Shown one piece after another: positions 17,788-31,727 of a stretch of 46,174 bases of DNA. Made by a program: the position numbers and the translations under genes. Source of the DNA: a bacterium (lineage in GTDB: Bacteria; CAIWAD01); NCBI GenBank assembly GCA_030685015.1, contig JAUXWS010000021.1, positions 1-46,174 of the forward strand. The letters run 5' to 3'. The notes below the pieces were generated by a model. It saw only the letters and a program-made list of their open reading frames with translations. It was not told where the DNA came from and ran no database searches. How positions within the stretch are numbered: the first letter of the stretch is position 1; each line of letters starts with the position of its first letter.

Positions 17788-20706
17788 ATGCCGTACATCC
17801 GCCGCATCCTGTGCATCGATGATGATCCCGACGCCTTGCGCGTGTTGACCGAGTATCTCGCCCTCGAGGGTTACGAGGTGCTGGCGGCCCCCGATGGCGC
17901 CTCGGGCATCCAGATGCTGGCCCAGGAAGAGGTCCAGCTCGTCATCACCGATCTCAACATGCCCGGATTGACGGGCATGGATGTCATCGAGATCGTCCGC
18001 AAGAACTACCCCCGGCTGCAGATCATGGTGGTGACCGGCTACGGCACGATCGAAAGCGTGCTGGACGCCCTGCATCGCGGAGCCGTGGACTACCTCGTCA
18101 AGCCCTACCTGCTCGAGATCCTCAAGCTGAGCCTGGGCAAGGCCGAGCGGCAGATGGAGATCGAGCAGCACCTGCGGGCGGTCCAGGAGGCGGGTGGCGC
18201 CTTGGAGGGCCGCAACCTGCTGGAGGCCCTCAACACCCCCGTGGCCCTCTTCGACGCGCAGCTGCAACCGGTTTCCGTCAACGGGCGCTTCCAGGCCCTC
18301 TTCGGCCCTTGGGGCGTGGACGGCCCCGAAGGCCTGCCGGCCAAGCAGCGTCGCCGCATCTTGGAATTCCTGCAGGCCGGCGGCGGCGAGGAAAGCCTGC
18401 TGCTCCGCGTGAAACGGGCAGGCGGGCCGGAACGGGTGCTCGAGCTGGGACTCAGCCCGGTGAGCGTCGCCGGGCAAATCCTGCTGCAGGCGAGCGAAGT
18501 GGAGCTGCGCGAGGAGAGCGAGAGCGGCCTGGAGGAGGCCTTGCTGGTCGTCTCCCCCAGCGGTGCGCTGTTGTGGGCCAATGGCGTGGCGACGGACTGG
18601 TTCGAGCTGGGCGACGGAGACCTCCCTTCGCTGGCGGATTTGCTGGGGAATGCGACCAAGCCCGCACCCCTCGCTCTCCTGAACGATGCCCTGCCGGCCA
18701 CCGCCTCCTGGACTTGGCGCTGCCAGCTGTCGGATCATCCCACCGCGCCCGCCGAGGTGGAGCTGCAGGCCACGCCCCTCCTGGACGAGCAGCTGCGACG
18801 GCGCGGCACCGTGCTTTGCTTGCGGCCCATCGGTGGCTTCGCCGATGGCGCGCCCTGGGATCGCCGCCACCAGGCCGAGGAGTGCCTGCCCCTGGTCAAG
18901 CTGGGGGAGCAGGGCCAGATCCGCTGGGTCAGCGCCGGCTTCACCCGACTGACCGGCCTGCCGGGCGAGGCCATGCTGCAACGGCCGATGGAGGAGGCCC
19001 TCGCCACCTGCCCGACCCAGCTGGAGGAGATGTCCCGCGTCGGCCAAAGGGACGGCGTGCTTGTCCAGTTGCGGCCGATCGATCCAGGACCGGTCGCCCT
19101 GGACATCGAGGAGCAGAAGGCCAAGCTCTTCCGTGCCACGTCCTTCCTGACCCATCTGCTCCGGGACGGCGACCTCGACGAGCACGCCCGGGTGCGCGAG
19201 CGGCTGGAGGAGGTGGCGCAGACCCTGGTCCGCTCGGGCTATTTCCGGCGGGCGGCCCTCTACCTGCGGGACGGCGAGACGATCCTGGGCTGGGGCTTCG
19301 CCGGCTACGAGGCGGCGGCGGAGGAGGAGATCCGCCAGAGCACCCAGTGGCGCCGGGAGTGCGAAGCGGTGGAGAACTGCCGTCTGCGCATCGGGACGGC
19401 CTGCATGGTCGTGCCCGACCTGCCCGAAGGGATGGAACTGCTTCGCTGGGAGGCGGGGGCCTTCCTCACCCTGCCCATCCTGGATCGCATGCAGCGGGAG
19501 GTGGGGCGCCTGCGCCTGGACGACTCCATCTCGGGCACCCTGCCCAACGAGGCGCAGGTCCACATCGTCGAGTTGCTGCTGCGCCATGTCGCCCTCTCCC
19601 TGGACGAGCTGGAGCTGGAACGCCAGGTGGCGCGCAGCGAGGCCCGCTACCAGGACCTCTACGAGAACGCCAAGTACTCGATCTTCGTGGTGGACGCGGA
19701 AAGCGCCCGCATCGTGGACGTCAACCGCGAGGCGGAGAAGCTGACGGGCTTCGAGCGCGGGGAGCTGATCGGCCGCCGCATCTGGGAGACCCACTCCAGC
19801 GAGTACCAGGAGGTGGCGCGGCGCAACTGGCTGCGCACCCTGCAGCGGGAGGCCACCTCCTACGAGAACGTGCCCCTGCAGCGCAAGGACGGCTCCACCA
19901 TCTTCGTCGATTACAACTGCATGTTCACCGAATTCAACGGCCGGCCGGTGGTGCAAAGCTTCTACCGGGACGTGACGGAGAAGCAGGCCCTTGAGTTCTC
20001 CCTGATCCAAAGCCAGAAACTGGCCGGCCTGGGGCAACTATCGGCGGGCGTGGCCCATGAGCTGCGCAACCCGCTCGGCATCATCAACTCCTCGCTTTAC
20101 TACATCAGCTCGGTGATCGAGCGCGAGGATCTGCGCCTGCCCGACCAGGTGAAGAAGCACATGGGCATCATCAAGAACGAGGTGGACCGCTCGCGCAAGA
20201 TCATCGAGAACCTGCTCAACTTCGCGCGGACAAGCAGCCACGAGCGGGAACGCGTGGACCTGGCGGATTTGCTGCGTGTCACCCTCGATCTGATGAAGAA
20301 GGAATTGCTGGTCAACAATATCCGCTTGGTGATGGAGATGGAGGATCTGCCCACCGTTCATCTCAACCTGGACGAGCTGAAGCAGGCCTTCCTCAACATC
20401 ATCCTGAACGCCACGCAGGCCATGCCGGGTGGCGGCATGCTGCGCATCCGCGGCCGGCGCGAGGGGGGACGTGTCCAGATCAGTTTCGAGGACACGGGCC
20501 AGGGCATCAGCCAGGAGAACCTGCCCAACGTGCTCAATCCCTTTTTCACGACGAAGGAGCCCGGCACGGGCACGGGCTTGGGCCTCTCCCTGACCCATTC
20601 CTTCATCCGGCGGGCGGGGGGGGACCTGACCCTGGAGAGCGAACTGGGCATCGGCACCACCGTCCGCATCTACCTGCCGGCCGGCGTAGTCGAGGAGACA
20701 CCATGA
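17788..20706 (+). CDS. Receiver-PAS-GAF-like sensor histidine kinase
   Basis: A 972-residue cytoplasmic protein. A receiver domain leads (acidic pair near residues 10-13, phospho-acceptor D55 in VITDLNMPG, Lys in YLVKPY). Two or three weakly conserved PAS-like segments (about 142-420) and a GAF-like region (about 440-610) follow, then a clear PAS domain (about 615-735, IFVVDAESARIVDVN). The kinase core has phospho-acceptor H757 in GVAHELRNPLG, N-box N874 in LNIILNATQAMPGGG, and G-boxes DTGQGI and GTGTGLGLS. ATG 17788 is chosen as it directly precedes the receiver; a TTG at 17725 is unlikely. ATGA overlap with the NtrC-type regulator makes the two a probable cognate pair. No membrane segment is seen, so the signal is cytoplasmic or comes via the receiver. 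Confidence 0.95.
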   Translation: MPYIRRILCIDDDPDALRVLTEYLALEGYEVLAAPDGASGIQMLAQEEVQLVITDLNMPGLTGMDVIEIVRKNYPRLQIMVVTGYGTIESVLDALHRGAVDYLVKPYLLEILKLSLGKAERQMEIEQHLRAVQEAGGALEGRNLLEALNTPVALFDAQLQPVSVNGRFQALFGPWGVDGPEGLPAKQRRRILEFLQAGGGEESLLLRVKRAGGPERVLELGLSPVSVAGQILLQASEVELREESESGLEEALLVVSPSGALLWANGVATDWFELGDGDLPSLADLLGNATKPAPLALLNDALPATASWTWRCQLSDHPTAPAEVELQATPLLDEQLRRRGTVLCLRPIGGFADGAPWDRRHQAEECLPLVKLGEQGQIRWVSAGFTRLTGLPGEAMLQRPMEEALATCPTQLEEMSRVGQRDGVLVQLRPIDPGPVALDIEEQKAKLFRATSFLTHLLRDGDLDEHARVRERLEEVAQTLVRSGYFRRAALYLRDGETILGWGFAGYEAAAEEEIRQSTQWRRECEAVENCRLRIGTACMVVPDLPEGMELLRWEAGAFLTLPILDRMQREVGRLRLDDSISGTLPNEAQVHIVELLLRHVALSLDELELERQVARSEARYQDLYENAKYSIFVVDAESARIVDVNREAEKLTGFERGELIGRRIWETHSSEYQEVARRNWLRTLQREATSYENVPLQRKDGSTIFVDYNCMFTEFNGRPVVQSFYRDVTEKQALEFSLIQSQKLAGLGQLSAGVAHELRNPLGIINSSLYYISSVIEREDLRLPDQVKKHMGIIKNEVDRSRKIIENLLNFARTSSHERERVDLADLLRVTLDLMKKELLVNNIRLVMEMEDLPTVHLNLDELKQAFLNIILNATQAMPGGGMLRIRGRREGGRVQISFEDTGQGISQENLPNVLNPFFTTKEPGTGTGLGLSLTHSFIRRAGGDLTLESELGIGTTVRIYLPAGVVEETP

Positions 20707-22091
20707 GTCAACGCTTGAAGATTTTGCTCGTCGACGACGAGATCAACATGCTGGAATCGCTGGGGGACGTCCTGCGCGGCGAGAAGTACCAGGTCGCCAC
20801 CGCCTCGGGTGGCGAGGAGGCGTTGGCCAGGCTGGAGAAGGAGAGTTCCTTCGACCTGATGATCACCGACCTCAAGATGCCCCGCATGAACGGCCTCGAC
20901 CTCCTCGACCGGGTGGTCAAGTCCTACCCCTCCCTCGACGTGATCGTCCTCACCGGGCACGGCAGTGTCGAGAGCGCCGTCCAAGCCATGCGCCGGGGCG
21001 CCTTTGACTTCCTGCTCAAGCCCTTCCAGCCGGAGGAGGCCCTGCAGATCATCGCCCGGCTGGATGAGAAGAAGAACGGCCTGGTGCAGAACAACGCCTT
21101 CCTGGCCGAACTCTCCCGGACCTACGGCTTCGACTCCATCATCGGCAACAGCCCGGCCATCATGGACGTGTTCAAGAAGGTGGCGACGGCGGCCAAGTCC
21201 AACGCCTCCATCCTCATCACGGGGGAGTCGGGCACGGGCAAGGAGCTGGTGGCCCACGTCGTCCACTACTTCAGCAACCGGGCCAACCGCCCCTTCATCA
21301 AGACCAGTTGCGCCTCCTTCGGCGAAGGCGTGCTGGAGAGCGAGCTCTTCGGCCACGAGCGGGGCGCTTTCACCCATGCCGTGGAGCAACGCAAGGGCCG
21401 CTTCGAGCTGGCCGATCGCGGCACCCTCTTCCTGGACGAGGTGGGCGACATCCCCATGCGCACGCAAACCAAACTGGTGCGCGTGCTGCAGACCAAGGAG
21501 TTCGAACGGGTGGGCGGCACGGAGACGCTCAAGGTGGACGTGCGGGTGATCGCCGCCACCCATCGCAACATCCGCCAAATGATCCAGGAGGGGCGCTTCC
21601 GCGAGGACCTCTTCTACCGGCTCAATGTCATCCCCATCCAGTTGCCCGCCCTGCGCGACAGGCAGGAGGACATCCCCCTTCTCGTCAACCACTTCCTGGG
21701 CCAGCTGACGCGGGAAATGGGCAAGAAGATCGACAAGGTGGCGGACAGTGCCATGGACGAGCTGATGAGCTACGCCTGGCCTGGCAACATCCGCGAGCTG
21801 CGCAATGTGGTGGAGCGCGCCGTGGTGTTCTGCGAAGGGCGCCTGCTGAAAGTGGACGACATCCACGCCGACCGCATGGCCGAGCCCCAGGAGGACGGCC
21901 ACTCCCTCAAGCTGAAAAGCCTGAGCCTGCAGGAGGCGGAGTCGGCCCTCATCACGCACTGCCTCAACCAGACCAAATGGAACCTGTCGAAGACGGCCAA
22001 ACTGCTGGAGATCAGCCGCGGCACGCTTTACTCGAAGATGGTCAAGCTGGGGCTGCGCGACACGGAGGAGGAGGAGGTCGAAGAGGAGTGA
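20703..22091 (+). CDS. NtrC-family sigma-54 response regulator with GAFTHA loop
   Basis: A 462-residue response regulator: receiver (phospho-acceptor D56 in MITDLKMPRMNG), AAA+ domain and C-terminal Fis-type helix-turn-helix (LLEISRGTLYSKMVKLGL) with an acidic tail. Walker A GESGTGKE and Walker B TLFLDEVGD are intact. The loop that contacts sigma-54 reads GAFTHA at residues 221-226 instead of GAFTGA. The Gly-to-His change sits in the tip of the L1 loop, where most substitutions harm activation, so the protein may be altered in sigma-54 coupling. Translationally coupled to the upstream kinase by ATGA. The target genes are unknown. Confidence 0.94.
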   Translation: MSQRLKILLVDDEINMLESLGDVLRGEKYQVATASGGEEALARLEKESSFDLMITDLKMPRMNGLDLLDRVVKSYPSLDVIVLTGHGSVESAVQAMRRGAFDFLLKPFQPEEALQIIARLDEKKNGLVQNNAFLAELSRTYGFDSIIGNSPAIMDVFKKVATAAKSNASILITGESGTGKELVAHVVHYFSNRANRPFIKTSCASFGEGVLESELFGHERGAFTHAVEQRKGRFELADRGTLFLDEVGDIPMRTQTKLVRVLQTKEFERVGGTETLKVDVRVIAATHRNIRQMIQEGRFREDLFYRLNVIPIQLPALRDRQEDIPLLVNHFLGQLTREMGKKIDKVADSAMDELMSYAWPGNIRELRNVVERAVVFCEGRLLKVDDIHADRMAEPQEDGHSLKLKSLSLQEAESALITHCLNQTKWNLSKTAKLLEISRGTLYSKMVKLGLRDTEEEEVEEE

Positions 22092-22203: not shown

Positions 22204-24897
22204 ATGGACCCAAGATCCGCGGACAGCCGGCACGAGCAAGGCGAGCTGCATTCCCATGTCAGGCAGTTGATGGGCAGCTTGCTGGACACGGCCCTGCAAC
22301 TGGTGGAAGGCCGTCACGGCTCCCTCATGCTGCTCGACGGCCAGAAGCGCCTGCGGCTGCGGGAGGCGCGCGGTCTTGATCCCGCCTGGCTGGAGCCGGA
22401 CCGCGACCACCGCTCCGGGCCGGCCGGCCGGGCCCTGCGCGAGATGCGCCCGCTCCATCTGGTGGGAAGCCTGGCCGCCGGCGTGCCCGTGGACGAATCC
22501 CTCATCCTCCCCCTCTCCACCAGCCAGGGGGCGGCCGGCACCCTCAACTTGAGCCGGCGGGGCGGGACTCCCTGGCCGGCGCAGCTGCGCGACCAGGTCA
22601 TCCGCTTCTCGGACGGCGTCTCCCAGACCCTGGAAGTGGTCCGCCTCTCGCGCGACCGGGATCGCCGCATGGCGGAGCTGGATCGCGTGCTGGCCTTCTC
22701 GCGCATCTTCGGCTCCACGCGCGAGTTGTCCAAGATCCTCGAGCTGCTCCTCTCCTGCGCCCGCGAGCTGAGCGCCTGCCAGGCCTCCTTCGCCACCCTC
22801 TATACGCCGGCCGGCGAGCGCCACGAGGCCTGGGCCGGGCACTGTCTGGCGGAGCCCGTGCTGCACCGGGTCATCCAGGGGCTGCGCGAGCGGTTCGGGC
22901 ACCGCTTCTTCGCCCGCGCCCGGCCGGAGCATCATGCCCGCCTCGATCTGCTGGACGACGACCACCCGCTCAAGCTCCTGGCGCGGGAAGGTCTGGCCCG
23001 CAGCGCCGTGGTGGTGCCCCTCGTCTTCGGCTACCGCATCCTGGGCCGGCTCTACCTGCTGGACGCCGACGAGCAGGTGCTGCACCGCGACACCCTGCGC
23101 CTGCTCATGCTCCTGGCCCACGAGGCCTCCATCGCCATCGACCAGGGGCGGGCCATCCGCGAGCTGCAGGAGATGGCTTTCGTCGATCCGCTCACCCGGG
23201 TCTACAACCGCAACTACTGGATCCAGCGCTTCGAGGAGGAGCTGGTGCGCGGCGAGCGGCGCGGGCAGCCGCTCTCGCTCATCATGCTCGACATCGACCA
23301 CTTCAAGGCCTACAACGACACCTACGGCCATCTGGTGGGCGACGAGGTGCTGCGCATGGTGGCCCAGGTGGTCCGCGCCTGCTTGCGGGAGGTGGACGTG
23401 ACGGGCCGTTTCGGCGGCGAGGAATTCGGCATCCTGCTGCCGGACACCGACGAGCACGGCGCCAATTTCGTGGCCGAGCGCATCCGCCTGATGGTGGAGC
23501 GCCTGGATCTGGGCCGGCCGCGCTCGGCGGCGGGCGGGCTGACCATCTCCCTGGGCGTGGCCTGCGCCGGTGGCCGGCGCTTGTCGGTGGACGAGCTGAT
23601 CCGGCAAGCGGACACGGCGCTCTTCGTCTCCAAGGAGCAGGGGCGCAACCGGGTGAGCATCTATGCCACCAATGGTGTGCAGCCCGCCGCGGGCCTGCCC
23701 ATGGTGCAGGCGCTGGACGAGGCCGACACCCGCCGCCTGACCGGCACCAGCGACTTCCTCTTCCAGATGGCGGACAGCCTGGGCGGCGTCCGTGAATGTC
23801 GCCCGCTGGGTGGGCAACTGGGCTTCCAGATTCTCGTCCTGGGCGGCGCGGCCGAGGAGCACCTGCCCCTGGTCCACCTCTTCGATTCGCTGGGCTATCA
23901 GACGCTGCTGGAGCAGCCCGACACGCCACGGATCCGCAGCGCGGTGCCGCTGGGCCAGGCGCTGCCCGACCTCGCCGTGCTCGATCTGGAGGTGCCGCCC
24001 GCCGGTGTGGATGGACTGACCCAGCTGCGCGACCTGAAGACCCACGATCCGCTCCTCCCGGTCATCGTCCTCACAGGGCGCGACGGCATCGAGCGGGCGG
24101 TGGAGGCCATCCGCCTGGGGGCCGATGACTATCTGCTGAAGCCATTTGGCGCCAAGGAGATCCGCCTGTGCGTGGAAAAGGCCTTCAGCAAGCGCTTCCG
24201 CTTGCTGCAGGGGGATCGGCAGGGGGCGGCGCGCAGTTCGGACCTCAGCGCCGACCTGACGGGCGTCTCCGACGAGATCCGGCGCGAGTTCGTGCGCAGC
24301 GCCCAGGAGCTGCGCATCATGCAGGAATTCAACAGACGCAGCCTGGAGCATCCCACCAAGGGCGCCCTCATGCTGGATGCCCAGCGACGGGTGCTGCAGC
24401 TCAACCGTCTTGCCGCCGAGATGCTGGGCATCGACGAGGCGGCCGGGGTCGGCCGCAGCCTGTTCGGCGCCGCCCCCAGCCTGGACAATCCACGCGTGGG
24501 CCATGCCCTCATCCACGTGGAGCAGACCGGCGAGGAGGCGACCATCAACGACTTCTGGTTGAAGTCGCCGGGGGGCGAGACCAGCGCCCTGCACAAGCTG
24601 CGCTTCATTCCCGTCGTGCTGGACGGCGGCGACGCCCTCCTGCTCATCCTGCTCGAGAACATGCTGGACCGCCAGTTGATCCAGGAGGAGGGACGCCGCC
24701 TGCGCATGCGCATCGCCCGCGAGATCCACGGACGCATCGCCCAGCATCTGCAAGTCATCTCGGGGCGGGCCGAACTGCTGTCCCTTGACGGGGAAGGCGG
24801 CGACGCCTCGGTGGAGCAGATCCTGGCCGCCGCCCGCCGCGTCAGCCAGATCCTGGGGGAACTGGGGGCGGACCTGCCCGGCGACGGCCTGCCTTGA
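22204..24897 (+). CDS. GAF-GAF-GGDEF-receiver-like-PAS protein with terminal kinase dimerisation-like helix
   Basis: An 897-residue soluble protein. Two GAF-like domains (about 22-150 and 159-319) lead to a GGDEF domain (about 325-488) with active-site GGEEF at 404-408 and an inhibitory-site RxxD at 395-398, so c-di-GMP synthesis with product feedback is likely. A receiver-like domain follows (about 539-662) that keeps D594 (VLDLEV) and Lys in YLLKPFG but lacks the usual N-terminal acidic pair (ILVLGG). Then come a PAS-like segment (about 714-822) and a helix with H842 in AREIHGRIAQHL, resembling a kinase dimerisation helix, but the protein ends 55 residues later with no ATPase domain. Its stop overlaps the -35 box of the tRNA-Ala promoter. 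Confidence 0.9.
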   Translation: MDPRSADSRHEQGELHSHVRQLMGSLLDTALQLVEGRHGSLMLLDGQKRLRLREARGLDPAWLEPDRDHRSGPAGRALREMRPLHLVGSLAAGVPVDESLILPLSTSQGAAGTLNLSRRGGTPWPAQLRDQVIRFSDGVSQTLEVVRLSRDRDRRMAELDRVLAFSRIFGSTRELSKILELLLSCARELSACQASFATLYTPAGERHEAWAGHCLAEPVLHRVIQGLRERFGHRFFARARPEHHARLDLLDDDHPLKLLAREGLARSAVVVPLVFGYRILGRLYLLDADEQVLHRDTLRLLMLLAHEASIAIDQGRAIRELQEMAFVDPLTRVYNRNYWIQRFEEELVRGERRGQPLSLIMLDIDHFKAYNDTYGHLVGDEVLRMVAQVVRACLREVDVTGRFGGEEFGILLPDTDEHGANFVAERIRLMVERLDLGRPRSAAGGLTISLGVACAGGRRLSVDELIRQADTALFVSKEQGRNRVSIYATNGVQPAAGLPMVQALDEADTRRLTGTSDFLFQMADSLGGVRECRPLGGQLGFQILVLGGAAEEHLPLVHLFDSLGYQTLLEQPDTPRIRSAVPLGQALPDLAVLDLEVPPAGVDGLTQLRDLKTHDPLLPVIVLTGRDGIERAVEAIRLGADDYLLKPFGAKEIRLCVEKAFSKRFRLLQGDRQGAARSSDLSADLTGVSDEIRREFVRSAQELRIMQEFNRRSLEHPTKGALMLDAQRRVLQLNRLAAEMLGIDEAAGVGRSLFGAAPSLDNPRVGHALIHVEQTGEEATINDFWLKSPGGETSALHKLRFIPVVLDGGDALLLILLENMLDRQLIQEEGRRLRMRIAREIHGRIAQHLQVISGRAELLSLDGEGGDASVEQILAAARRVSQILGELGADLPGDGLP

Positions 24898-24922: not shown

Positions 24923-24941
24923 CATGGCCTTTGAAATCGCT

Positions 24942-25015
24942 GGGGCATTAGCTCAGTTTGGTAGAGCGCTTGACTGGCAGTCAAGAGGTCAGCGGTTCGA
25001 CCCCGCTATGCTCCA
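24942..25015 (+). tRNA. tRNA-Ala (anticodon GGC)
   Basis: A full cloverleaf can be drawn: 7-bp acceptor with the G3-U70 wobble that marks alanine tRNAs, D-stem GCTC/GAGC, anticodon stem CTTGA/TCAAG with loop CTGGCAG (anticodon GGC), and a T-arm with GGTTCGACC. The discriminator is A. The 3' CCA is not encoded. Confidence 0.97.
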
Positions 25016-25024
25016 TGCGGCGCC

Positions 25025-25053
25025 TTGATTGTAATGCCCAGGCGCATTAGATT
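25025..25053 (+). promoter_or_regulatory. Sigma-70-type promoter for tRNA-Gly
   Basis: TTGATT at 25025-25030, a 17-base spacer, TAGATT at 25048-25053. The tRNA begins at 25069. The -10 box and the bases after it (tagattcacggcct) repeat those of the tRNA-Ala promoter almost exactly. Confidence 0.8.
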
Positions 25054-25068
25054 CACGGCCTGACAGAC

Positions 25069-25141
25069 GCGAGAGTAACTCAGCTGGTAGAGTACCACGT
25101 TGCCAATGTGGTTGTCGCGGGTTCGAACCCCGTCTCTCGCT
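25069..25141 (+). tRNA. tRNA-Gly (anticodon GCC)
   Basis: Acceptor GCGAGAG/CTCTCGC, D-stem ACTC/GAGT, anticodon stem CCACG/TGTGG with loop TTGCCAA (anticodon GCC), T-loop TTCGAAC. Discriminator U, as in bacterial glycine tRNAs. CCA is not encoded. Confidence 0.97.
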
Positions 25142-25149
25142 TGTGAGCA

Positions 25150-25177
25150 GCGTCCGCCTCGGCGGACGCTTTCGTTT
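25150..25177 (+). terminator. Intrinsic terminator-like hairpin between tRNA-Gly and tRNA-Cys
   Basis: GCGTCCGCC and GGCGGACGC are perfect arms (25150-25158 and 25161-25169) followed by TTTCGTTT up to the base before tRNA-Cys. It should end the tRNA-Gly transcript, or act as a processing signal if the tRNAs are co-transcribed. Confidence 0.75.
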
Positions 25178-25248
25178 GGCGGCGTAGCCAAGTGGTAAGG
25201 CAGAGCTCTGCAAAAGCTCGATCACCAGTTCAAATCTGGTCGCCGCCT
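25178..25248 (+). tRNA. tRNA-Cys (anticodon GCA)
   Basis: Acceptor GGCGGCG/CGCCGCC, short D-stem GCC/GGC, anticodon stem GAGCT/AGCTC with loop CTGCAAA (anticodon GCA), T-stem ACCAG/CTGGT. Discriminator U, a cysteine identity element. CCA is not encoded. No promoter of its own is evident; a terminator-like hairpin lies directly upstream. Confidence 0.97.
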
Positions 25249-25631: not shown

Positions 25632-26351
25632 ATGACGATCAGATGCGTGATGGACCTTCTCCTGCGCCCCGGTCTGGGGATGACGCACGCGGCTGCCCTG
25701 CGCGACCGTCTCGCCGCCTCGCCCGCCGACGCCCTGCCCGCTCTCGTCGAGGATCATCCCGTGCTGCTTCTTGCCTTGTTGCGGCGGGCCGGATCGTGGC
25801 CACGGGCCGGGCGCGACCTGCCCCAGGATGCGCGCGAGGCCTGTCAGATCCTGGGCGAGGAGGCCGTCCGCAGCCATCTGCGCACCACCCTGCTCATCCT
25901 CCCCTCCCCGGCCGGGCAGGCCGCGGCCGACCAGCGGGCCCGCATCCTGCGGGAGGCGGGGGAGCGTCTGCTGCGCCTGCTCGAGGAGGCCCGGACAACC
26001 GAGGCCACGCCCCCCGGCCGGGTGGAGCGCACCCTCCTGCGGCTTCTGGAGCTGCCGGTCCGTCTTGCTGATCCCGCCATCGCGCCCGCCAACCCGCCCG
26101 CCCAGTGGGGCCGTCGCCTGTTGGAGGTGATGGGCGGCCAGCGCTGGTACAACCCGGAGATCATCCAGGCCCTGGCCGCGATGGAGGATCCCGTCGCCGT
26201 GGGCGGCGCGGCCGGTCGACGGGGGGCCCTGCTGCGAGCGGTGGCGGACCTGGGCGTCCCCGGCGGCCTCTCCGATCCAGGTCTGGCGCTCCATCTGGGT
26301 TTGATGCCCTGGCAGCTGCCCGACCTGGGCATGGGCAAGCAGCGTGGCTGA
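25632..26351 (+). CDS. HDOD-like helical protein (weak match)
   Basis: A 239-residue soluble, Leu/Ala/Arg-rich protein. Residues about 30-90 follow the spacing of an HDOD domain (LPALVEDHPVLLLALLRRAG, then EACQILGEEAVRSHLRTTLL), a helical, catalytically inert relative of HD phosphohydrolases found in signalling proteins. The HD-type metal residues are not expected in HDOD and are not seen. The remaining part is not recognised. A start at ATG 25632 is used; ATG 25650 is also possible, and neither has a strong ribosome-binding site. It overlaps the next sensor gene by 8 bases, which suggests that both serve one pathway. Confidence 0.6.
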   Translation: MTIRCVMDLLLRPGLGMTHAAALRDRLAASPADALPALVEDHPVLLLALLRRAGSWPRAGRDLPQDAREACQILGEEAVRSHLRTTLLILPSPAGQAAADQRARILREAGERLLRLLEEARTTEATPPGRVERTLLRLLELPVRLADPAIAPANPPAQWGRRLLEVMGGQRWYNPEIIQALAAMEDPVAVGGAAGRRGALLRAVADLGVPGGLSDPGLALHLGLMPWQLPDLGMGKQRG

Positions 26352-29196
26352 GCGCGCCCCCGAATTGCGCCGCCAGCTGCGGCGGGTGCTCGACGCCCTG
26401 CTGGAGGGAGATCCGCCCTCCGCCGAGCTGGAACTCATCCTGCTGCGGGCCGACCATGTCCTGCGCACCCAGGATGATGCCGTGCAGGAGATGCGGCAGT
26501 CGCTCCTGGAGCAGGTGGACGACTTGCAACTGCGCCTGGACCACCTGTCCGTCCTGCGCGAAGTGGGAGAACTGCTGTCTGCCAACCTGGAGGGCGACGC
26601 GCTGCTGGACAGGCTGCCCGCCATGTTGCGTGAAGCCTTCGGCGCCGAGAGCGCCTCGCTCTGGCTGCTCGATCCAGGGCACGAGCGCCTCGAGATCGTG
26701 GCGGCCGACCCCACCCGCCCCGGCCCCGACGAGCGCACCCTGCCCCTGGACAGGGGCGTGGCGGGTTGGGTGGCGCGCCAGGGCCGCTCACGGCTGGTGC
26801 CCGACACCGACCTCGATCCCGTTTTCCTGCCCCATCCGCGCAACGGCGACGGCGAGGGCGGCGCGCCACGCACCCTGCTCTGCGCCCCCCTCAAGCTGGG
26901 CGACCGAGTGCTGGGCGTGGTCCACCTTTCGCACCGGGAACCGGGCCGGCTGGACGAGAGCGACGAGGCCCTGCTCGAGCTGGCCTGCCCCTCCATCGCC
27001 CTGGCCGTCTCCCGCACCCGCCTGCATGAGGGCTTCCGCCAGCGGCTGGAGGACCAGACGCGCGAGCTGCAGGACGTGCGCGAGTTCTTCCGCAGCATCG
27101 TCAACAGCAGCGACGATCTCATTGTCGTGCTCAGCCCCGACCAGGAGATGATCCTGGTCTCCACCGTGGCGGAGAGCCTGCTCGGATTGCCCGTCGACGA
27201 GCTGCTCAACCGGCCGGCCGAGGGCCGACTGCTCGATGCCGCCGCCGTGGCGGAACTGAGCACCTTGACGGAACGGGGGGACAGCCTGCGCGACCAGGAC
27301 GTCTTGCTGCGCCGCGCCGACGGGCGGGAAATCCACGCCTCGCTCAACGCCAGCCCCATCCGCGGCGCCTCGGGCGAGCTGCTCGGTTCCCTCTGCATCT
27401 TCCGCATCATCGAACGCCGGATGCGCAGCCATCACGAGCTGACGCGCCTCAACCAGAGGCTCAACGCCCTCTTCGAGGCCGCTGTCGACCTGGGATCGAG
27501 CCTGGACCTGGGGCAGGTGCTGGAACGCTGCCTGGCCTGGATCCGCCGCCTGACCGAGGCGGACGAGGCCAGCCTCCTCCTGCTCAGTCCCGACGGCCGC
27601 CATCTGGCCCGCTTGCGGCGCGACCAGGAGGACCAGGCACCGCCCCTGCCGGTGGGCGAATGCCCGGAGGGGATCGTCGTGCGGCAGCAGAAACCCCTCC
27701 TGCTCTCCGAGCCGGTCTCCGTCCGCCAATTCCTGCCCGAGGACGCGGGACACGTGCAGAGCTGCATCATGGTGCCGCTCAAGATCCTCGACAATGTGCT
27801 GGGCGTCCTGCGGGTGGACAGCCACTCGCCCGCGCGCCTCTTCACCCACCAGGATCTGCGCATGTGCACGACCTTCGCCTCGCAGGCGGCGATGGCCATC
27901 GACAACAGCCGGCTCTACGCCGCCACCCGGCGCGAAAGTTCGCGCCTGCGCGGACTGCTGGACCTCTCCCGGCGCATCCGGGACCTGCGCAATGGACAGG
28001 CCATCCTCGCCCAGTTCGCCCAGACCGCCCTGGACCTGGAGGGCGTGCAGGCGGTGGTGGCCTGGGAGTACCGCAAGAACGAGCACCAGTTGCGCCGCGC
28101 CTGCGCCCTGGCCAAGGGCCTGACCCTGGAGCCGGGGGAGAGCCTGCTGCCCGCCGGCATGCCCGGCGACGACCCCCTGCCCTACCTGCTGGCCAATCGG
28201 GAACGCCGCCTGCGCTTCCGGCCCCTGCCCGAGCAACTGCCCCCCTGGGCCCCTGCCGTGCGCGACCGGGAACGCGCCATCTCCCTCCTCGCCGTGCCCG
28301 TGGTGGATGGAGGCGAGGTCTACGGGCTGATGCTTTTCTATGGTGACGAAGCCCTCGCCTCCCTCGAGGACGAGGAGAGCTTCATCAGCGTGCTGGCCCT
28401 GCAGGCGGCGGCGGCCATCCACAGCCAGCGCTTGCTGCAGGAGAACCAGGCAGCGCGGGAGTTCCTCACCAGCGTCGTCTCCTCGGCCACCGACGCCATC
28501 GTCGTGACGGACCGGCTGGGGCGCATCACCCTCTTCAACCCCGGGGCCGAGGCCATGCTCGGCCTCTCGGCCCGGGAGATGGTGGGCCTCCACGCCCCCG
28601 GCCTCTACCCGGACGCCACCCGCGTCCTGACCGATCTGCGCCGCGCCCTGCGCCGCGGGCAGGACCATCTCACGGTGGAGACCACCCTCCACGCCCGGGA
28701 GCGGGACGTGCCGGTCCAGCTGTCCCTGAGCTGGATGCGCGACGCCCGCAACCGCATCATGGGCGTCCTGGGCGTGGCCAAGGACATCAGCGAGCTGAAG
28801 AAGCTGGAGCAGGCCCGCCTGGAGGCGGAGCGCCTGAGCGGCATCGAGCGGATGGCCGTCACCGTCTCCGACCGCATCAACACGCCGCTCTCGGTGGTCC
28901 TGGCCCAGGTCGAGCTGGTGCGCTTCCTGCAGCCGGCGCTGGGGCCGGAAGCCCTCGCCGCCCTGCAGTCCATCGAGGACCAGGTGGGGGCGATCCAGGG
29001 CATCCTCGACCAGTTGAACCACCTGAAGGATCCGCGCATCAAGGACTACGCCTTGCCCAACGTGCACATGTACGACCTGGAGGCGGGCGGGGGAAAGGCC
29101 GGCGCGGTCCCGCCCGGCGGCAAGGACCCGACGCGTGAGGGGAGCGGCGGGGCGGCCGCCGTCCGACGAAGGGGCAAGTCGTCGACCCCGTCTTGA
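26344..29196 (+). CDS. GAF-PAS-GAF-GAF-PAS multisensor protein with non-phosphorylatable kinase-like end
   Basis: A 950-residue cytoplasmic protein. In order: a helical lead with coiled coil (about 40-70), GAF (70-225), PAS (250-365), GAF (370-520), GAF (538-700), PAS (704-816), and a region like a histidine kinase dimerisation domain (830-900). In that region the usual AHEINxPL motif reads VSDRINTPL, so the phospho-acceptor His is replaced by D843, and no ATPase domain follows: the protein ends in a Gly/Pro-rich tail. It can hardly autophosphorylate. It may work as a partner or regulator of another kinase, for instance through dimer exchange with the REC-PAS-kinase at 17788. GTG 26344 overlaps the HDOD-like gene. 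Two receivers follow. Confidence 0.92.
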   Translation: MAERAPELRRQLRRVLDALLEGDPPSAELELILLRADHVLRTQDDAVQEMRQSLLEQVDDLQLRLDHLSVLREVGELLSANLEGDALLDRLPAMLREAFGAESASLWLLDPGHERLEIVAADPTRPGPDERTLPLDRGVAGWVARQGRSRLVPDTDLDPVFLPHPRNGDGEGGAPRTLLCAPLKLGDRVLGVVHLSHREPGRLDESDEALLELACPSIALAVSRTRLHEGFRQRLEDQTRELQDVREFFRSIVNSSDDLIVVLSPDQEMILVSTVAESLLGLPVDELLNRPAEGRLLDAAAVAELSTLTERGDSLRDQDVLLRRADGREIHASLNASPIRGASGELLGSLCIFRIIERRMRSHHELTRLNQRLNALFEAAVDLGSSLDLGQVLERCLAWIRRLTEADEASLLLLSPDGRHLARLRRDQEDQAPPLPVGECPEGIVVRQQKPLLLSEPVSVRQFLPEDAGHVQSCIMVPLKILDNVLGVLRVDSHSPARLFTHQDLRMCTTFASQAAMAIDNSRLYAATRRESSRLRGLLDLSRRIRDLRNGQAILAQFAQTALDLEGVQAVVAWEYRKNEHQLRRACALAKGLTLEPGESLLPAGMPGDDPLPYLLANRERRLRFRPLPEQLPPWAPAVRDRERAISLLAVPVVDGGEVYGLMLFYGDEALASLEDEESFISVLALQAAAAIHSQRLLQENQAAREFLTSVVSSATDAIVVTDRLGRITLFNPGAEAMLGLSAREMVGLHAPGLYPDATRVLTDLRRALRRGQDHLTVETTLHARERDVPVQLSLSWMRDARNRIMGVLGVAKDISELKKLEQARLEAERLSGIERMAVTVSDRINTPLSVVLAQVELVRFLQPALGPEALAALQSIEDQVGAIQGILDQLNHLKDPRIKDYALPNVHMYDLEAGGGKAGAVPPGGKDPTREGSGGAAAVRRRGKSSTPS

Positions 29197-29251: not shown

Positions 29252-29638
29252 ATGAAGTTGGAAGCAGCGCGCTCCGTCCTGGTGGTCGAGGACAACGACG
29301 ACTTCCGCCGGGTCCTGGCGCAATTCCTGGCGATCTACGGCTTCGAGCCCGTGCGGGCCGCCGCCGACGGCGAGGAAGCCTGGGGCCTGCTCGCCGACTG
29401 GCGTCCCGACCTGCTCATCACCGACCTCAACATGCCGCGCATCAGCGGCATTGAATTGATGCGCCTGGTTCGTGAGAAATGGAAAGACCTGCCCATCATC
29501 GTCATCACCGGCTACGAGCACGAGTTGCACCATCTGAGCGCCTTCCAGGTGCAGGCCACGCTGATCAAGCCTTTCAAGATGCCCCTGCTGGCTGCCGAAA
29601 TAGCTCGTATCCTGGGTCAAGGACGGCGGACTTCATGA
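29252..29638 (+). CDS. Stand-alone receiver-domain protein
   Basis: A 128-residue single-domain response regulator (CheY-like): acidic pair in VLVVEDNDD, phospho-acceptor D58 in LITDLNMPRISG, Thr in VITGY, Lys in LIKPFKMP. It has no output domain, so it signals by protein contact or as a phosphate sink. GTG 29249 and ATG 29252 are both in frame; ATG is preferred. ATGA overlap with the next receiver gene shows they are co-translated. It follows the phosphorylation-deficient sensor, so a separate kinase must supply the phosphate. Confidence 0.93.
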   Translation: MKLEAARSVLVVEDNDDFRRVLAQFLAIYGFEPVRAAADGEEAWGLLADWRPDLLITDLNMPRISGIELMRLVREKWKDLPIIVITGYEHELHHLSAFQVQATLIKPFKMPLLAAEIARILGQGRRTS

Positions 29639-30015
29639 ACCGGATCCTCATCATCGACGATTATCCGGCGGCCCGGGAAACCCTGGGCGCGTTCCTGGTG
29701 GGCCTGGGCTACGAGGTCCTGCAAGCCCCGGACGGCCCCACCGGCCTGGATCTGCTCGCCCGGGAACATCCCCATCTGCTCTTCCTGGACATCCTCATGC
29801 CGGGCATGAACGGCCTGGAAGTGATCAAGCGCATCCGCGGCATCGATCCGACGGTGCCGGTGGTGATGGTCACGGGCCATGATTCAGCCCAGATCGCGCG
29901 GGAACTGCTGCTCGCCGGCGCCACCGACTTCATCCGCAAGCCCCTCAACCTCGAATACATCCAGCGCGTGGTGGAGGCCTGTCTGGCCAAGCAGCCGCGG
30001 CCCCGCCTGGCCTGA
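29635..30015 (+). CDS. Second stand-alone receiver-domain protein
   Basis: A 126-residue CheY-like protein: ILIIDDYPAARETL with acidic pair, phospho-acceptor D52 in LFLDILMPGMNG, TGHDS, and Lys in FIRKPLNLEYI. No output domain. The ATG at 29635 overlaps the stop of the first receiver. The pair is only modestly similar to each other, so it is not a recent duplication. Likely part of a phosphorelay or a protein-interaction switch with the neighbouring sensors. Confidence 0.93.
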   Translation: MNRILIIDDYPAARETLGAFLVGLGYEVLQAPDGPTGLDLLAREHPHLLFLDILMPGMNGLEVIKRIRGIDPTVPVVMVTGHDSAQIARELLLAGATDFIRKPLNLEYIQRVVEACLAKQPRPRLA

Positions 30016-30029
30016 TTCCCGGGAGACCC

Positions 30030-31727
30030 ATGATCGACCCGTCAAGCTGCCCGTCCGGCGAGCATCAGCGCATCCGTGTCACCCGGGAGGATGGACAGCT
30101 GCTTGATCTTCCCGTCGGGACCCTGGTCAGGGCCCTGCCGGGCATCGACAGGGGGCGGGACGGCCTGCCCTTCATCGCCGCCCTGGTCAACCACGACCTG
30201 GCCTCGCTCAGCTATCCCCTGGAGATCAACAGCGAGGTCCGCCTGCTCACCCTGGCCGATGGGAACGGCTGGCGCGTCTACCAGCGCTCCCTCGCCTTCC
30301 TGGTCGCCAAGGCCATGCGCGAGCTCTTCCCCCAGGCTGTCTTCTCCCTCCAGCACTCCCTGGGCAGCGGCCTCTTCTGGAGCTTCCGCAACAACGCCCA
30401 CGACGGCATCAGCCAGGAACTGCTGGACCGGCTGGCCGAGCGCATGAGGGAGCTGGTCCACCTCAACCTGCCCATTGAGCGGCGCAAGGTCTCCTTCACC
30501 GACGCCCTGGCCCGCTTCGAGGCGGACGGCGAGCGCGACAAGCTGGACCTGCTGCGCTTCCGCAACCCGCCCCATGTCGTGCTGCACGTCTGCGACGGCT
30601 TCTCCGACCTCGCCCACGGTCCGCTGGCCGACTGCACGGGCGTGCTCGGCCGCTTCGAGCTGGTCAACTACGAGCGGGGCTTCGTGCTCAACCTGCCGCG
30701 GCGCGAGCCGCCCTACGCCGTGGGCGAGCTGGAGCGGCAGCCCCACCTCTTCCACATCTACCAGGAGCACAAGGAATGGGGCCGCATCCTGGGGGTGGAC
30801 ACGGTGGGCCGCCTCAACGAGACGATCGACACGGGGGAGATCGAGGCCTTCATGCGGACGGCGGAGGCCCTGCACGAGCAGAAGCTGGGGCGCATCGCCC
30901 AGCAGATCGTCGCCCACCGGGACCGCCTGCGCGTCATCCTCATCGCCGGTCCTTCATCCGCGGGCAAGACCACCTTCGCCAAGCGGCTGGTGACGCATCT
31001 CACCGTCCACGGCCTGCGCCCGCTCATCCTGGGCACGGACGACTACTTCGTCGGCCCCGAGCAGACGCCCCGCGACGCGAGTGGCAAACCGGACTTCGAA
31101 CACGTGGAGGCGGTGGACCTGCCCTTCTTCAACGAGAGCCTGTCCCGCCTGAGCGAGGGCCAGGAGATCGAGGTGCCCTTCTTCAACTTCCAAACCAAGC
31201 AGCGGGAGTTCCACGGCCGCCGCATGCGCCTGGCCGCCGACCAGCTCCTCGTCGTGGAGGGCATCCACGGCCTCAATCCGCTGCTGACCGAGCAGGTGCC
31301 GGCCGAGCGCAAGTTCCGCATCTTCATCAGCGCCTTGACCCAGCTCAACCTGGACCGCCACAACCGCATTTCGACGACGGACAACCGCCTGATGCGGCGC
31401 ATGGTGCGCGACCACCGCTACCGCGGCCACTCGGCCCTGGCCACCCTGGGCAGCTGGGCCTCCGTGCGGCGGGGCGAGGAGCGCTGGATCTTCCCCTTCC
31501 AGCGCGAGGCGGACGAGACCTTCAACTCCGCCCTGGACTATGAGCTGGCCGTGCTCAAGCCCAAAGTTGAGCCACTGCTCATGCAGATCAAGCCGCATCA
31601 TCCTGAATACGCCGAGGCGCGCCGCCTGGCCCAGTTCCTCTACAATTTCCTGGGGGTGGACGACCGCAGCGTGCCGCGCACCTCCATCCTGCGCGAGTAC
31701 ATCGGCGGCAGCGCCTTCCGCTATTGA
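30030..31727 (+). CDS. Nucleoside (uridine) kinase with threonyl-tRNA-synthetase-like N-terminal region
   Basis: A 565-residue protein. Residues 1-60 resemble a TGS domain, and residues about 60-230 resemble the second additional domain of threonyl-tRNA synthetase, including HSLGSGLFWSF. The C-terminal half is a uridine kinase/phosphoribulokinase P-loop domain with Walker A GPSSAGKTT from residue 307, then DDYFVG and DLPFFN. Such fusions are known as nucleoside kinases in several anaerobic lineages; the substrate is probably uridine/cytidine, but it is not proven by sequence. It starts 14 bases after the second receiver and may share its message. The following 157-bp gap holds a promoter-like site for the BMC genes. 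Confidence 0.9.
   Translation: MIDPSSCPSGEHQRIRVTREDGQLLDLPVGTLVRALPGIDRGRDGLPFIAALVNHDLASLSYPLEINSEVRLLTLADGNGWRVYQRSLAFLVAKAMRELFPQAVFSLQHSLGSGLFWSFRNNAHDGISQELLDRLAERMRELVHLNLPIERRKVSFTDALARFEADGERDKLDLLRFRNPPHVVLHVCDGFSDLAHGPLADCTGVLGRFELVNYERGFVLNLPRREPPYAVGELERQPHLFHIYQEHKEWGRILGVDTVGRLNETIDTGEIEAFMRTAEALHEQKLGRIAQQIVAHRDRLRVILIAGPSSAGKTTFAKRLVTHLTVHGLRPLILGTDDYFVGPEQTPRDASGKPDFEHVEAVDLPFFNESLSRLSEGQEIEVPFFNFQTKQREFHGRRMRLAADQLLVVEGIHGLNPLLTEQVPAERKFRIFISALTQLNLDRHNRISTTDNRLMRRMVRDHRYRGHSALATLGSWASVRRGEERWIFPFQREADETFNSALDYELAVLKPKVEPLLMQIKPHHPEYAEARRLAQFLYNFLGVDDRSVPRTSILREYIGGSAFRY

Follow-up and report, generated by a model that had tools for sequence, protein, structure and literature searches.

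Proteins that keep the dimerisation and histidine phosphotransfer (DHp) domain of histidine kinases and have no catalytic ATPase (CA) domain are already known. Galperin et al. 2018 described archaeal 'HisKA, no HATPase' proteins in which the His is conserved, including REC-(PAS)-HisKA forms. Phosphatase or phosphotransfer roles have been suggested for these proteins and the REC-HisKA class was stated to be unstudied (PMC5847659). We analysed a 46,174-nucleotide (nt) stretch of DNA from a bacterium of the GTDB lineage CAIWAD01 (contig JAUXWS010000021.1, positions 1 to 46,174 of the forward strand; 'the window') and focus on a multisensor protein encoded at 26344-29196, in which the phospho-acceptor position of a DHp-like domain is occupied by Asp. 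The protein resembles the 'HisKA, no HATPase' proteins in its PAS/GAF sensors and its C-terminal HisKA-type domain without an ATPase. The described proteins, however, are archaeal with a conserved His (PMC5847659), whereas here the Asp is fixed, the acidic residue next to the His site (+1, counted from the phospho-acceptor) is lost and a receiver is linked to the gene. The conserved His is absent from the whole clade of Asp proteins and is found in 69 of 70 relatives that share its C-terminal tail. Judged by its sequence, the window protein belongs to the known kind by architecture and its Asp variant appears to be new.

Several other systems share a part of this arrangement. DivL of Caulobacter is likewise a PAS-bearing pseudo-kinase whose phospho-acceptor His is replaced and which acts on a stand-alone receiver, but the replacement is Tyr and not Asp, the CA domain is kept and DivL is not a phosphatase (PMC4211667). 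A DHp-CA unit with Tyr at the His site, as expected of a DivL orthologue, is not present in the window protein. RocA is also a non-kinase relative of sensor kinases that modulates a two-component system; it differs in being a membrane protein with a degenerate CA domain and a retained His (PMC7028121). EnvZ, CrdS and HK853 in phosphatase mode have the DHp fold and a polar residue at His+4 in common with the window protein (PMC3510030, PMC7005713, PMC5727384), which in contrast has no His, no +1 acid and no CA domain. The DxxxQ pair of CheZ and of HisKA_3 proteins such as NarX (PMC3510030) and DesK (PMC5231405) also sets an acid four residues from a polar one; here, however, the acid stands at the His position itself and its partner is Thr and not Gln. 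The likeness is one of spacing only. In the literature searched we met neither the Asp clade nor its lost +1 acid, its tail motif or its pairing with a receiver, which is no proof of their absence from print. The literature and database searches of this analysis also gave no characterised member of the tail-bearing ATPase-less DHp family.

The features of the multisensor gene, the two receiver genes behind it and a kinase gene of the same cluster are as follows:

26344..29196, + strand: multisensor protein GAF-PAS-GAF-GAF-PAS-DHp(Asp), 950 amino acids (aa), without an ATPase domain (Pfam, local profiles)
26596..27009, + strand: first GAF domain, aa 85-222 (Pfam GAF_2)
28465..28788, + strand: last PAS domain, aa 708-815, adjoining the DHp domain (Pfam PAS)
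28789..29091, + strand: DHp-like two-helix domain with conserved tail (profile matches, AlphaFold model)
28870..28872, + strand: codon of Asp843 at the phospho-acceptor position, followed by R-I-N-T-P-L (translation; Asp in 35 of 35 clade rows)
29047..29082, + strand: C-terminal tail motif YALPNVHMYDLE (Y, M and D counts in the Asp clade and in His-type rows)
29252..29638, + strand: stand-alone receiver REC1, proposed cognate partner, 55 nt 3' of the multisensor gene (Pfam, receiver BLAST, alignment)
29635..30015, + strand: stand-alone receiver REC2, overlapping REC1 by 4 nt (Pfam, alignment)
17788..20706, + strand: hybrid kinase REC-PAS-HisKA-HATPase with the H-box AHELRNPL, a possible phosphoryl source (Pfam)

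Pfam recognised three GAF and two PAS stretches in the multisensor protein. The local profiles gave the order GAF 87-222, PAS 249-355, GAF 392-519, GAF 615-692 (weak) and PAS 708-816. Residue 843 is Asp, within TVSDRINTPLS; a sequencing error was ruled out, as the same residue is found in independent assemblies. The HisKA match (aa 837-894) reached 18.0 bits (E 0.003) and is thus below the cut-off of 26.9. In the Asp relatives L055, L057 and L072 HisKA passed the cut-off, and in L062 it fell just below, which identifies the hairpin as homologous to the HisKA DHp. Pfam found no HATPase domain; both the phospho-acceptor His and the CA domain of a HisKA kinase are missing. Past the second DHp helix the domain closes with the conserved tail YALPNVHMYDLE. 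No named NCBIfam family fits the protein: the only cut-off passed was that of the generic PAS S-box, and the same was true for L057 and L062 and, among the matches listed (25 of 50), for L055. The first-pass annotation had reported five sensor domains, an intact I-N-T-P-L with Asp in place of His, the lack of an ATPase and two stand-alone receivers behind the gene, and we observed the same in each case. With neither His nor ATPase the requirements for autophosphorylation are indeed absent, and the non-kinase appearance together with the fixed Asp supports its description as a putative pseudokinase-type regulator.

The Asp clade and its His-bearing relatives

We searched 98 genomes for orthologues, scoring at most 8 candidates per genome at E 1e-60 or better. 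Relatives of the multisensor protein were confined to the family of the window genome: G001 with 68% identity, G002 with 67% and 77% (the gene is split across two contig ends) and G003 with 41%. The motif VSD-[RKQ]-INTPL occurs in all four family members, the window included, and the order multisensor, REC, REC is kept in G001, in G003 and on the G002 contig that bears the end of the gene. A tblastn search of plasmids gave partial matches only, with none of 120 records covering >80% of the query. A scan of genome contigs yielded one relative, L013, which is apparently the G002 contig with the end of the gene.

To look further afield we used profile A2, built from eight Asp sequences, on 386 genomes. 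Asp-type places scored 126-150 bits and the next places at most 69 bits; Asp types were found in 7 of the 386 genomes (G000-G004, G084 and G159). Places of at least 100 bits were present in 14 of 39 genomes in the phylum of G159 and in 7 of 13 in that of G084, and Asp was read in each. The labels of G084 and G159 place them no closer to the window genome than the same domain, and each is missing from the other's phylum list, so three phyla are involved; we refer to that of G159 as the second and that of G084 as the third. The resulting Asp clade comprises 35 distinct rows, 5 from the window's class and 23 and 7 from the two other phyla. It was chosen by score (90 bits) against an Asp-seeded profile, and hence the counts should be taken as the description of a discrete clade, not as an unbiased sample. 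The genome scans scored at most 8, 17 or 12 candidates per genome, and weaker members may have been missed.

For the Asp clade we observed the following residues: position 0 is Asp in all 35 rows; +1 is Q in 26, R in 4, H in 4 and K in 1, and never acidic; +4 is T in 33, S in 1 and N in 1. N at +3, P at +5 and L at +6 occur in 35 of 35 rows each, and -5 and -4 are invariant too. In the 70 His-type rows with the tail, position 0 is H in 69 and Q in 1, +1 is E in 62, and +4 is N in 54, Q in 13, T in 2 and S in 1. The sole non-His row is L095 2614-4179, a tail protein reading AAAQEINNPL. The 28 kinases with HATPase from the same loci all have H, followed at +1 by E (21), N (6) or D (1). The tail reads Y..G..M-I/L-D-L/I in both groups, with Y in 35, M in 35 and D in 33 of the 35 Asp rows, and Y in 62, M in 60 and D in 63 of the 70 His-type rows.

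We computed trees after excluding 10 rows that had neither tail nor ATPase in the available stretch. With all columns FastTree grouped the 35 Asp rows together (0.939). When the H-box core (columns 27-32) was removed, the quick tree needed two changes for the Asp rows. With the 35 rows constrained together, the tree without the H-box core was 13.6 log units better and was not rejected in the approximately unbiased test (p-AU 0.674). The 93-column tree thus agrees with a single origin of the Asp clade and is no proof of it.

The tail-bearing DHp is not restricted to Asp proteins. On contig C43 of the same genome two further proteins align with the domain and its tail of ∼25 residues; both retain NHEINNPLT, have no ATPase and end in MLDLE or MLDIE. 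The two genes are L018 7010-7960 and 9308-10711; one lies directly behind an HDOD gene, and an HDOD gene beside a tail-DHp gene was also seen in L053, L054, L056 and L084. With profile A1 (six sequences) and a limit of E 1e-9, 110 of 290 genomes gave matches, ordinary kinases among them; the strongest places extend to the end of the tail. From 70 tail hits we retained 66 proteins (set A3), omitting L020 (cut by a contig end), L098 and L094 (long) and the second open reading frame (ORF) of L083. Pfam assigned HisKA to 61 of the 66, Response_reg to 29 and HATPase_c to 1; two of the omitted rows, L094 and the second L083 ORF, carry HATPase as well. The usual forms are REC-DHp of ∼230 aa, GAF/PAS-DHp and REC-DHp-REC.

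The predicted structures are in line with a DHp hairpin. For the DHp domain (112 residues, with L013 as second row) AlphaFold gave two long helices with a mean predicted local distance difference test score (pLDDT) of 70.2 and values below 50 in the tail; a single-sequence model of PAS-DHp reached a mean of only 41.7. The top eight Foldseek matches of the DHp model in the PDB were DHp-bearing histidine kinases or ethylene-receptor DHp domains at weak E values (0.14-0.84), the ninth was unrelated and no match had E <0.001. A PDB sequence search with A2, run up to E 1, returned 31 sequences headed by ordinary histidine kinases, e.g. LvrB and HK853, with unrelated helical proteins lower in the ranking.

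Receivers linked to the Asp domain

To count what follows the domain we used the loci that extend for 600 nt or more in the 3' direction (21 of 24 Asp and 59 of 61 His-type loci). A receiver follows the Asp domain directly at 19 of 21 loci, 11 times as a stand-alone gene and 8 times fused. For His-type domains the same holds at 7 of 59 (2 stand-alone, 5 fused). Fisher's test gave 9e-11 for all receivers and 2e-6 for stand-alone ones (11/21 vs 2/59), values that are overstated because the rows are related. If any receiver-bearing next gene is counted, the numbers are 16 of 21 (11 stand-alone receivers and 5 kinases) against 4 of 59. His-type relatives carry a REC of their own anywhere in 29 of 61 cases, and it stands more often in front. 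Downstream of the two Asp exceptions, L157 and L159 of the third phylum, we found 16S rRNA; L157 and L161 of the same phylum have a gene for a CCA-adding-type enzyme upstream.

Two types of cluster occur in the second phylum. In type A a REC gene, the Asp gene (REC-REC-PAS-DHp(Asp)), a REC gene of ∼130 aa and a kinase gene follow each other, with extra genes between them in some genomes. Type B has REC-DHp(Asp)-REC, followed in most cases by a REC-PAS-HisKA-HATPase kinase with AHNINTPL. The preceding REC gene of type A was seen in L147, L149, L151, L155, L163 and L165; in L147 and L149, the two to which Pfam was applied, it encodes REC-HATPase_c_2, an ATPase of another kind beside the ATPase-less DHp. 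The kinases beside REC-DHp(Asp)-REC in L148, L150, L152, L156, L164 and L166 show AHNINTPL with Asn for the +1 acid, yet their ATPase is present. The PAS-DHp(Asp) gene of G004, a genome from the window's class, has REC behind it and then FliD and FliS. FliD also lies within ∼6 kb of an Asp gene in six f154 genomes of the second phylum (G159, G315, G316, G317, G323 and G324), and in the window's family it sits on other contigs. A flagellar role as a general explanation was rejected: G313, G314, G322 and all seven third-phylum Asp genomes gave no FliD match.

REC1 and REC2 are both complete receivers with intact phosphorylation residues. In an alignment, the Asp-linked receivers retain the acidic pair, Asp, Thr/Ser and Lys, with the exception of the fused receiver of L153, which has Asn for one acid. 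We compared the receivers by BLAST among 140 receiver domains. Outside its own family REC1 first matched the receiver behind the G004 Asp gene (41%), then type A receivers intermixed with N-terminal receivers of kinases from the window's family. The best matches of the G004 receiver were receivers fused behind Asp domains (39-41%), followed by type A receivers, and the type A receiver of G159 matched fused receivers outside its own kind (38-44%). On this evidence the Asp-DHp of two phyla appears to be accompanied by a single receiver lineage, placed behind it either as a gene or fused, which is a usual sign of a working pair. The first matches of REC2 outside its own kind were receivers of hybrid kinases, and its link to the Asp gene is therefore local.

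A candidate phosphatase and competing readings

We tentatively favour the reading, at somewhat short of even confidence, that this kinase-dead sensor with its DHp dimer is a dedicated effector that dephosphorylates a cognate receiver. Signals sensed by the GAF and PAS domains would pass through a coiled coil to the four-helix bundle of the DHp dimer. The bundle would dock the phosphorylated cognate receiver (REC1, perhaps REC2) at the place where a kinase usually docks it, and the receiver would lose its phosphoryl group as Thr847 (+4) positions the attacking water. Asp843 might replace His as the base or orienting group, forming a DxxxT pair with Thr847. The phosphoryl groups could be supplied by a separate kinase, e.g. 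that at 17788, or by acetyl phosphate. The tail may touch the receiver; the C-terminal tail of WalK does so via another motif (PMC9087282).

This proposal combines the loss of the kinase residues and the retention of a polar +4 residue with the published dissection of HisKA domains, by which such a pattern would abolish the kinase and leave the phosphatase function intact. The recurrent receiver directly behind the Asp domain, its relatedness in two phyla and its almost always complete phosphorylation residues also count in favour. In CrdS the kinase activity depends on the +1 acid and the phosphatase activity does not, and the reverse is true for the Asn at +4 (PMC3510030, Willett and Kirby). 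Matching +1/+4 results were obtained for HK853 and two further kinases, with Asn or Thr at +4 serving the phosphatase, and the H371A change in CrdS caused only a modest drop in phosphatase activity (PMC3510030). The HisKA His enhances the reaction by placing or activating water (PMC7005713), and earlier work discussed in that paper reportedly found phosphatase activity at pH 8 for a version of HK853 without CA. The polar residue expected at +4 of a HisKA-type phosphatase is present throughout the Asp clade. Positions +11 and +15, which match the DivL docking residues Gly561 and Leu565, are small and hydrophobic in the clade.

Several observations weigh against a phosphatase. The His-type relatives share the polar residue at +4, the INxPL frame and the docking-type positions (small at +11, hydrophobic at +15), and so the retention of these features does not prove such a use. 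PleC H610A loses its phosphatase along with its kinase activity (PMC3510030), and ADP stimulates the HisKA phosphatase via the CA domain (PMC7005713), a domain that our protein lacks. DivL, a receiver-binding pseudo-kinase, has no phosphatase activity and stabilises DivK~P (PMC4211667). In the third phylum there is no receiver gene beside the Asp gene in L157 and L159, and the other contigs end too soon. Finally, the basis of the proposal is sequence, from which we infer the docking, the chemistry, the choice of receiver and kinase, and the receiver's output.

The main rival is a reader in the manner of DivL: the Asp-DHp would bind the phosphorylated receiver without hydrolysis and relay this information, together with the GAF/PAS signals, to a kinase or another partner. 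DivL, with Tyr for His, engages DivK~P on the usual docking face, has neither kinase nor phosphatase activity and depends on its PAS domains for phospho-specificity (PMC4211667). The architecture here is similar (many PAS/GAF domains, a dead DHp, a stand-alone receiver), and the window cluster, like both operon types of the second phylum, includes an active-looking kinase. However, DivL retains its CA domain and shows some variation at the Tyr position (Ala in Magnetospirillum; PMC4211667), whereas the Asp is invariant and the CA domain gone in our proteins. A carboxylate opposite an aspartyl phosphate would moreover not obviously favour stable binding, and overall we regard such a reader as rather unlikely. 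We give still less credit to a heterodimer, by which the Asp-DHp would join the DHp of an active kinase and alter the activity of that kinase, as RocA does with CovS; RocA is a pseudokinase with a dispensable His that binds CovS (PMC7028121). The first-pass annotation had suggested pairing with the kinase at 17788. It is right that a complete kinase lies nearby, and kinases are also near in the second phylum, where the gene next in operon type B mostly encodes a kinase whose AHNINTPL resembles NDQINTPL and likewise lacks the +1 acid. RetS-GacS is a further parallel for this mode. On the other hand, the recurrent partner is the receiver, the H-boxes of the window kinase and the neighbouring second-phylum kinases are of differing types (AHELRNPL, HEMKQPL, HNINTPL), and no kinase is found on the 7.3-kb contig of G004.

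Two explanations remain. The DHp might merely hold the sensor dimer together, with the Asp a product of neutral drift and the output elsewhere, which the missing catalytic domain would allow. We consider this highly improbable: under drift a surface position is unlikely to stay Asp throughout the 35 rows of three phyla, with -5, -4, +3, +5 and +6 invariant too. For a pseudogene-like recent decay of a kinase, the least credible of all, we found no support. The first-pass annotation had named homologues with His and an ATPase as the sign of such a degenerate copy and an alignment as the check; all orthologues (G001, G002 and G003) and every clade row carry Asp, which is common to the four family members down to 41% identity. 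The His-bearing tail relatives are also without ATPase, the exceptions being 1 of 66 and two rows outside that count. A single cross-phylum clade is not rejected and scores above the free tree. Recent degeneration was rejected on this conservation, as far as it reaches, and on the tree test.

Neighbouring genes and significance

The other genes listed for the window are:

20703..22091, + strand: NtrC-type sigma-54 activator, REC-AAA-Fis (Pfam)
22204..24897, + strand: GAF-GGDEF-REC-PAS protein ending in an ATPase-less DHp domain, HisKA_3-like with His kept (Pfam, H-box reading)
25632..26351, + strand: 239-aa protein without a Pfam match over the cut-off, sharing 8 nt with the 5' end of the multisensor gene (Pfam)

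Between the kinase and NtrC genes and the multisensor gene lie the GAF-GGDEF-REC-PAS-DHp gene, three tRNA genes and the small gene of no recognised family. The DHp site at 22204-24897 reads EIHGRIAQH and its counterpart in G003 reads RQIFGQVAQH (Phe for His); in G001 the interval from the NtrC gene to the multisensor gene showed no similar gene. The tRNA genes (tRNA-Ala(ggc), tRNA-Gly(gcc) and tRNA-Cys(gca)) occupy 24941-25248, amid two signalling genes. The 239-aa protein has counterparts in G001 (42%) and G002 (42% over 154 aa). Directly 3' of the receivers, 30030-31727 encodes a uridine-kinase-like protein with a weak N-terminal TGS match in Pfam; the gene is at the same place in G001 and G002 and not in G003. 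Near the contig end (45979-46151) there is a match to Group II intron D1-D4 RNA.

In broader terms the Asp clade may represent an ancient class of dedicated receiver phosphatases derived from DHp domains, with a catalytic Asp (DxxxT), the ATPase shed, the tail fixed (perhaps touching the receiver) and an own receiver alongside or fused in at least two phyla. On the sequences compared here we hold this wider proposal to be possible, though doubtful. Archaeal HisKA proteins without HATPase are mostly annotated as histidine kinases (PMC5847659). If the proposal is true, a whole clade of HisKA proteins without HATPase does the reverse of a kinase's work, and evolution has separated the functions that mutagenesis assigned to His, His+1 and His+4. 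The fixed Asp offers a single-residue test with a named receiver partner, and the finding points to a widespread ATPase-less DHp family with a conserved tail.

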